A stretch of 64,000 nt of DNA from Roseicitreum antarcticum (GTDB taxonomy: Bacteria > Pseudomonadota > Alphaproteobacteria > Rhodobacterales > Rhodobacteraceae), in NCBI RefSeq assembly GCF_014681765.1, contig NZ_CP061498.1, positions 2,741,501-2,805,500 of the forward strand, read 5' to 3'. Positions 7,889-9,827 of the stretch are shown here, one piece after another (the stretch's first letter is position 1; each line of letters starts with the position of its first letter). Made by a program: the position numbers and the translations under genes. The notes beneath the pieces were generated by a model. The model searched no databases and had not been told where the DNA came from. It saw nothing but the letters and a program-made list of their open reading frames with translations.

Positions 7889-8806
7889 TCAGGTCAGCAG
7901 GGTGCCCGGCGGCAGGGGCAGGCCGCGCCGCAGTTCATCCACCTGCATCGGGCGTTTGCCTTCGCGCTGCGCCAGGGTGATTGCCACCGCGCCGGAACCG
8001 CAGGCAATGCGCAACGTGCCTGCGCCGTCCCCGTCCAACACCACACCCGGCGCGCCCGCGCCCTGTGCCACCTGCGCGCGCAACAGCTTCAGCCGCCCGC
8101 CGGGGCTGTCGCACCATGCACCGGGAAAGGGCGACAGGCCACGGATCTGCCGGTCGACGACTTCGGCGGGCTGGGTCCAATCGATCCGCGCCTCGGCCTT
8201 GTCGATCTTGGCGGCATAGGTCACGCCGTCATCGGGCTGGGGCAGGGGTGCCAGGCTGTGCAGCTCTGCCAGCGCCTGCACGATCAGCCCCGCCCCCATC
8301 GCCGACAGCCGGTCATGCAGATCGGCGGTGGTGTCGGTGGGCGAAATCGGCGTGGCCTGACGCAGCAGTACCGGGCCGGTATCCAGCCCGGCCTCCATCT
8401 GCATGATGCAGATGCCGGTTTCATCATCCCCCGCAAGGATCGCCCGGTGGATCGGCGCCGCCCCGCGCCAGCGCGGCAGTAGCGAGGCATGGATGTTCAG
8501 ACACCCCAGCCGTGGCGCGTCCAATATCGGCTGTGGCAAGATCAGCCCGTAGGCCACCACCACCGCCACATCGGCGCCCAGTGCCGCGAATGCCGCCTGG
8601 TCGTCGGCACTGCGCAGCCGGGCGGGGTGGCGCACCGCCAACCCCAGTTCCCGCGCGCGGGCATGGACCGGGGTGGGGCGGTCACGCTTGCCGCGCCCGG
8701 CGGGGCGGGGCGGCTGGCAATAGACCGCCACGATGTCATGCGCGGCATGCACAGCCTCCAGCACCGGGACCGAAAACTCCGGCGTGCCCATGAAGATCAC
8801 CCGCAT
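7889..8806 (-). CDS. fmt: Methionyl-tRNA formyltransferase
   Basis: Formylates Met-tRNA(fMet) using 10-formyl-tetrahydrofolate before initiation. 305 residues. The N-terminal formyltransferase domain starts [14 protein letters not shown]; the catalytic region is [15 protein letters not shown] (Asn and His visible) followed by [15 protein letters not shown] with the essential Asp. The C-terminal domain ends PPGTLLT. The ATG at 8806 is chosen because it matches the family start; the upstream open extension is an artefact. The ATG shares its A with the TGA of the deformylase-like gene, so the two are coupled. Confidence 0.96.
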
Positions 8807-9306
8807 CAGCGCCCCCGCAACTTTGCTGCACGTTTCAACAGCATCTGCCGTTTGACCGGGCGCAAGTGGTCGAAATACATCCGCCCGTTCAGATGGTCGA
8901 TCTGATGCTGTACCGAGGTCGCCCAAAGGCTGACGAAATCCCGTTCCTCTGCCGCGCCTTGATCGTTGAGGAACCGCACCGTCACCGCGCGCGGGCGCTC
9001 AACCTGCGCCCAGACGCCGGGCAGGTTGGGGCTGCCTTCATCATGGCTGCGCATCTGCGCGCTGGCGTGCAGGATCTCGGGGTTGGCCATGCGCACCGCT
9101 TGGCCCCGCCCTTCGGACGCATCAACCACCGCCAGCCGCAGCATCACGCCGATCTGTGGCGCCGCAAGGCCGACGCCGGGCATCGCCTCCATTGTGTCGA
9201 TCATGTCAGCCCAATGCGCGCGGATGGCATCGGTAATGCCATCGACCGGCGCAGCAGTCGCCCGCAGCCGTTTGTCGGGGTAGGGGATGCACAGGCGCGC
9301 GGTCAC
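8806..9306 (-). CDS. Peptide deformylase-like protein lacking catalytic residues
   Basis: A 166-residue paralogue of Def. Motif I is intact ([10 protein letters not shown], residues 44-53). Motif II, normally EGCLS, reads EGSPNLP (90-96), so the metal-binding Cys is lost. Motif III, normally HELDH, reads HQIDH (134-138), so the catalytic Glu is Gln. Two His ligands remain, but hydrolytic deformylation is unlikely. It overlaps def by 4 bases (ATGA) upstream and fmt by 1 base downstream, so it is produced with both enzymes. A scaffold, N-terminus-binding or regulatory role is possible. The sequence observations are direct; the role is inference. Confidence 0.88.
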
Positions 9307-9827
9307 GCGCTGCGCGCCCGGTCGCGTTTCAACTTTTGCATCTTGCGGGTAATGATCTGGCGCTTCAGGGGGCCCAGGTAATCAATGAACAGCTTGCCGT
9401 TCAGATGGTCCAGTTCGTGCTGCGCGCAGGTCGCCCAGAGGTCCGCGAACTCATCCTCGTGCACCTTTCCATCCAGCCCGGTCCAGCGCATGCCGACACG
9501 GGCAGGGCGGGTGACATCGGCAAATTGCTCGGGGATCGACAGGCAGCCTTCCTCGTAGACATTCACGTCATCCGAGGTCCAGAGGATCTCGGGGTTGATC
9601 AGCACCATGGGTTTGGGGGCGGCCCCCTCTTCCTTCACGCAATCCATCACGAACAGGCGCTGCATGACGCCCACCTGCGGCGCGGCAAGGCCCACGCCCG
9701 GCGCATCATACATGGTGCGCAGCATATCCTCGGCCAGCGCGCCAACCTCTGGCGACACCTCGGCCACCGGGGCGCAGGCCTTTTTCAGGCGGGGATCCGG
9801 ATGGATCAGGATGGGTCGAATGCTCAT
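9303..9827 (-). CDS. def: Peptide deformylase
   Basis: Removes the formyl group from nascent peptides. 174 residues, with all three signatures: [10 protein letters not shown] (44-53), EEGCLSIP (92-99, metal Cys95) and HELDH (137-141, two His ligands and catalytic Glu). It is the first gene of the def / def-like / fmt unit and overlaps the next frame by four bases. The 133-bp spacer to the divergent aminotransferase gene must hold both promoters. Confidence 0.97.
   Translation of the reverse strand: MSIRPILIHPDPRLKKACAPVAEVSPEVGALAEDMLRTMYDAPGVGLAAPQVGVMQRLFVMDCVKEEGAAPKPMVLINPEILWTSDDVNVYEEGCLSIPEQFADVTRPARVGMRWTGLDGKVHEDEFADLWATCAQHELDHLNGKLFIDYLGPLKRQIITRKMQKLKRDRARSA

Follow-up and report, generated by a model that had tools for sequence, protein, structure and literature searches.

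A conserved and very probably inactive peptide deformylase paralogue encoded with def and fmt in Rhodobacteraceae

The window, the whole 64,000-nucleotide stretch of Roseicitreum antarcticum DNA analysed here, encodes together with def and fmt a peptide deformylase (PDF)-like protein, P3, that lacks both the metal-ligand cysteine and the catalytic glutamate. P3 sequences form one branch of the PDF tree, the replacements in their active site are fixed, their predicted fold is intact, and their gene is under purifying selection and keeps its order with def and fmt, while the C-terminal helix has remained basic. The original prediction was that a dead deformylase is maintained by selection among formylation and deformylation genes, and the fixed replacements, the gene order and Ka/Ks support well a selected, very probably dead paralogue. 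Metal binding and catalysis very probably disappeared from the P3 lineage in a single event early in Rhodobacteraceae, after which the gene was retained. Our leading interpretation, plausible rather than probable, is that P3 is a conserved Type-1-like PDF pseudoenzyme that would dock at the ribosome exit and pace Def or methionine aminopeptidase.

The P3 gene and its altered motifs

P3 matches the PDF family profile PF01327 with 134.7 bits (cut-off 22.8), and a whole-genome profile search found two genes with this match, both at the locus described here (Table 1). Rhodobacteraceae, Salipiger pallidus (83%) among them, supply the nearest named matches. Because P3 also scores above the cut-off of NCBIfam TIGR00079 (128 against 103.95 bits), automatic annotation would name it an active peptide deformylase. 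NCBIfam NF009484 does not define P3: the five P3 proteins scanned scored 132 to 137 bits, with the cut-off at 190.

Table 1. Features of the def-P3-fmt locus in the window and examples of the middle PDF from other loci
Feature	Position	Strand	Description	Basis
P3	8806..9306	-	166-aa PDF-like protein lacking the Cys metal ligand and the catalytic Glu; starts with GTG	ORF, sequence, Pfam
def	9303..9827	-	Canonical peptide deformylase, EGCLS and HELDH, 174 aa	ORF, sequence, profile matches
fmt	7889..8806	-	Methionyl-tRNA formyltransferase, ATG at 8806	TIGR00460, 271 bits
P3 altered motif II	approx. 9010..9039	-	Residues 90-99 (10 letters, not shown)	Sequence
P3 altered motif III	approx. 8890..8907	-	Residues 134-139, HQIDHL	Sequence, alignment
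P3 C-terminal basic helix region	8809..8859	-	Residues 150-166; helix 150-165 in the model	Charge count, model
Middle PDF, locus L039	2507-2965	+		
Middle PDF, locus L068	2510-2974	+		
Middle PDF, locus L176	2516-2989	-		

The motif changes that had been claimed are borne out by the open reading frame and its translation. Motif I is retained (10 residues, not shown), EGSPNLPG occupies the place of EGCLS and HQIDH that of HELDH. Among the features of an active PDF, motif I with its Gln is therefore present, and both the Cys of motif II (EGCxS) and the Glu of motif III (HExxH) are missing: Ser occupies the place of the metal-ligand Cys90, Gln that of the catalytic Glu and, judged by motif spacing, Ser also that of the second Cys. 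The Glu, Glu133, has a catalytic role in PDF, and Ser is a poor metal ligand. According to the available text of a study of the Salmonella enzyme, Cys90 binds the metal and is needed for activity, C90S is inactive and C130S costs about half of the activity (PMC7683392). Judged from its motifs, P3 is very likely devoid of deformylase activity.

Both overlaps with neighbouring genes that had been reported are present in the sequence, with GTGA common to the def stop and the P3 GTG start (four bases) and one base common to the P3 TGA and the fmt ATG. Of 208 loci, 193 have the genes in the order def-(middle PDF)-P3-fmt and on the same strand, or show part of this order where the locus ends before fmt. 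Seven of the 15 exceptions are without P3, and the rest are mostly fragments or ORFs whose sorting followed a long open frame lying upstream. Among genus representatives, the stop of the upstream PDF overlaps the P3 start by four bases in 62 of 107, and the P3 stop overlaps the fmt start by four bases in 32 of 113 and by one base in 14 of 113. Coupling by translational overlap is common at P3 but not universal, so that 'locked' between def and fmt, as the arrangement had been called, is too strong a word.

Conservation, selection and distribution

Comparison with relatives, proposed earlier as the check on these substitutions, was made on 120 P3 orthologues, one per genus and all distinct in sequence. 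Ser at the place of the metal Cys, Pro in place of the Leu that follows it and the Gln of motif I are each found in 120/120; Gln at the place of the catalytic Glu and Ser at that of the second Cys, beside motif III, are found in all 119 readable representatives. In a larger, partly redundant set of 202 P3 rows, Ser is present in 202 and Gln in 201, the remaining row being cut off by a contig end. By comparison, Cys and HE are kept in 322 of 324 def-type rows, the exceptions being one fragment and one degenerate middle PDF. The alignment of the 120 sequences has 23 invariant columns. In a PDF tree that took in about a third of the family loci, plus additional-genus and out-of-family loci, a single branch with SH-aLRT 100 separates the P3 rows from all others. 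Fixation of the substitutions across the orthologues indicates that P3 is not a case of local decay.

Selection on P3 is close to that on its neighbours. Mean pairwise identity among 108 genus representatives, a one-per-genus set without the 80 loci that had been fetched as best P3 matches, is 0.659 for P3, 0.690 for def and 0.692 for fmt; at the 54 loci with all three PDFs it is 0.674, 0.703 and 0.699, respectively, and 0.507 for the middle PDF. Ka/Ks is 0.302 for P3, 0.268 for def and 0.291 for fmt (3853 pairs, 139 loci), and 0.44 for the middle PDF (1435 pairs); these values serve only to rank the genes, given that Ks approaches saturation between genera and that the pairs have lineages in common. 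Pairs were chosen on fmt, as choice on P3 identity would favour P3. P3 is under purifying selection and is held nearly as tightly as def, whereas the catalytically intact middle PDF is not. Its conservation and Ka/Ks speak strongly against a degenerating gene.

The middle PDF occurs in 63 of 127 genus loci and is absent from the genome of the window. Its motif I contains GRG, and both Cys and HE are preserved. It evolves at a higher rate than def and is without a basic C-terminal helix. It is the reverse of P3, with catalytic residues kept and helix charge lost, and in this respect resembles active PDFs that have no helix. At one locus (L029), the second PDF-like ORF is a middle PDF without Cys and HE (ENALSVPGV, QQVMDH), which may be decaying or frame-shifted.

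The distribution of P3 was assessed in 149 genomes of the family representing 149 genera, the window's own included; at genus level the sample comprises the window's own genome only. P3 is present in 122 genera (120 from loci of other genera, one from the window and one as a fragment, G098, at the end of a contig), 23 have a catalytic PDF only, and four yielded no PDF match, three of these four genomes being less than 90% complete. The loci from 127 other genera comprise the 120 with P3 and seven without; these seven and 16 more make up the 23. In a second sample, 193 of 196 near-complete genomes of the order, all of which fell in this family, have a P3 match with E < 1e-53, the 193 being classed by E-value against a best canonical def match of 5e-48 in the family sample (L133, motifs checked). 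The other three (G579, G621 and G101) gave weaker matches only and on reading have canonical def alone. Outside the family, a DNA signature of P3 that recovers 171 of 201 P3 loci matched none of 169 genomes of the class and two of three from the same family. Similarly, no P3 was present among the best 28 out-of-family loci in a protein search of 115 genomes of the class, two of them from the family; all 28 have EGCLS and HExDH.

On a def + fmt tree of 148 rows, 18 P3-less genera fall into ten groups, one of which (four rows) is basal. This suggests one early gain of P3 followed by several losses, although many nodes are weak. Loci with insufficient fmt or def and four P3-less genera with very long fmt branches (L251, L255, L239 and L202) were dropped from this tree, and a tree of fmt alone is poorly resolved. 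The long branches of these four genera raise the possibility that P3 loss may go with fast-evolving lineages. Random loss among close relatives, named at the outset as an argument against a kept function, is thus partly seen: 23 of 149 genera have a PDF but no P3, and a tree with weak support places such genera in ten groups. The gene is kept in 122 of 149 genera; P3 is useful, but dispensable in some genera. Pseudorhodobacter turbinis has a 77.5% identical copy at NZ_CP039965.1:1086133-1086612, on a replicon of 1.58 Mb that is listed as a plasmid.

Predicted structure and candidate roles

An AlphaFold2 model of P3, built with the 120 sequences, has a mean pLDDT of 96.4 and ends in a C-terminal helix (Table 1). 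Among solved structures, Type-1 PDFs match it best, and do so along the whole of P3 (5j46, TM 0.93, 42% identity); against E. coli 1xen, Z is 27.1 with an rmsd of 1.4 over 164 aligned residues. A fold common to P3 and PDF, here a predicted one, shows no function. Mean net charge at aligned positions 148-165 is +6.25 in P3 (n=120), +7.45 in def (n=126) and -0.87 in the middle PDF (n=63), so P3 has the basic C-terminal helix characteristic of ribosome-docking Type 1 PDFs; some tail columns that are fixed in def, such as Lys at def 167, vary in P3. In the available text of earlier work, interaction of E. coli PDF with the ribosome depends crucially on its alpha3 helix in vivo, phage PDFs without the C-terminal helix region can still work in vivo (PMC5591237), and the PDF helix binds uL22, the PDF and MAP sites overlapping on the ribosome (PMC9099147). 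The seat at the ribosome exit that had been proposed for P3 thus gains indirect support from the conserved basic helix, from which docking itself is inferred.

Under the interpretation that we favour, P3 descends from a Type-1-like PDF in which a single early event in the family very probably abolished both metal binding and catalysis; four swaps surrounding the active site are now fixed, namely Cys to Ser, Leu to Pro, Glu to Gln and second Cys to Ser. Using its basic C-terminal helix, P3 would occupy the site at which PDF docks on the ribosome exit, and would leave formyl groups on; docked without deformylating, it would compete with or pace Def and methionine aminopeptidase on emerging chains. 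Several points weigh against this: a basic tail might have another purpose, and some of its columns that are fixed in def vary in P3; 23 of the 149 genera manage without P3; P3 is slightly less conserved than def; and PDFs with lost motifs are not always inactive (PMC12690207, available text). A broader version, possible but doubtful, is a three-way split of deformylation among the clustered PDFs. Def would combine catalysis and docking; the fast, helix-less PDF would catalyse without docking and perhaps act away from the ribosome; P3 would dock without catalysing, as a ribosome-exit factor gating nascent-chain processing.

Other roles would account for parts of the data. By analogy with inactive subunits elsewhere, P3 might regulate Def (or Fmt) as its partner in a heteromer, with coupled translation fixing the ratio of the two. 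The conserved order, the frequent four-base overlap of the upstream PDF stop with the P3 start (62/107 loci) and a rate close to that of def agree with such a partner, but catalytic def is kept in genera without P3, and we consider it unlikely. The altered residues are invariant rather than drifting, and together with both motif-III His and Gln51 the Ser and Gln could form a new active site for another substrate, whether or not a metal takes part. A rewired enzyme of this kind is nevertheless decidedly unlikely, given that Ser ligates metals poorly, the P3 residues matched no recognised hydrolase set and the predicted fold is that of PDF throughout.

Two readings that keep a role closer to deformylation are both very improbable. 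Weak deformylation, or deformylation in special conditions, would find a precedent in PDFs that stay active with altered motifs, motif loss not always meaning loss of activity (PMC12690207, available text), but in P3 the equivalents of Cys90 and Glu133 are both replaced, and the C90S change is the one reported as inactivating in Salmonella (PMC7683392, available text). Binding and shielding of formyl-Met N-termini without cutting would suit the retention in P3 of Gln51, Glu90, Arg104 and the two His residues along with a large part of motif I. This binding, which the original prediction had listed first, is weakened by the invariant Pro93, which replaces the Leu91 of E. coli PDF, a residue whose backbone NH holds the formyl oxygen. 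Finally, P3 overlaps both neighbours in the window and is gone in some genera, as might be expected of a decaying gene kept merely as a translational spacer between def and fmt; that idea is scarcely credible beside a P3 rate like that of def and fmt, the 23 invariant columns and the presence of fmt in the def locus in 22 of 23 P3-less genera (7/7 and 15/16).

Relation to known deformylases

The clusters that hold P3 are very likely those already reported from Rhodobacterales, where, according to the available text of a 2025 survey, clustered PDFs occur in 98.1% of reference species and three genes in 62.5%, with a rationale called elusive (PMC12690207). In the available main text of that survey, all four mentions of 'Rhodobacter' fall in one passage, which names neither an inactive signature nor a helix contrast. 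Searches by title and abstract for deformylase pseudoenzymes, Rhodobacterales PDFs and Rhodobacter sphaeroides essential genes returned nothing on P3 beyond this survey, and the literature searched, in the form available, yielded no description of a dead deformylase as a co-translational factor. The group in which P3 is widespread is ecologically large, and an automatic model names the protein 'peptide deformylase'. The proposed split of catalysis and docking between neighbouring paralogues, if true, would offer a natural test of the reason for PDF binding to ribosomes and may account for the published, unexplained clusters.

With Type 1 PDFs such as Def of E. coli and Burkholderia, P3 shares the full-length fold including the C-terminal helix, as well as motif I, but differs from them in that the metal Cys, the next Leu and the catalytic Glu are replaced. 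Inactive PDFs are already known as Type 3, so the kind is not new. In the available text of two papers, Type 3 is defined by substitutions in motifs I and II and comprises weakly active or inactive proteins, among them accessory copies of S. aureus and S. pneumoniae and those of archaea and trypanosomatids (PMC12690207, PMC5591237). P3 resembles these as a PDF homologue with substitutions in catalytic motifs. Compared by description, however, P3 keeps motif I and alters motifs II and III, ends in a helix like that of Type 1 and is encoded beside def and fmt. As far as our searches show, what is novel is a conserved inactive PDF that combines motif I and a Type-1 helix inside a def-fmt cluster.
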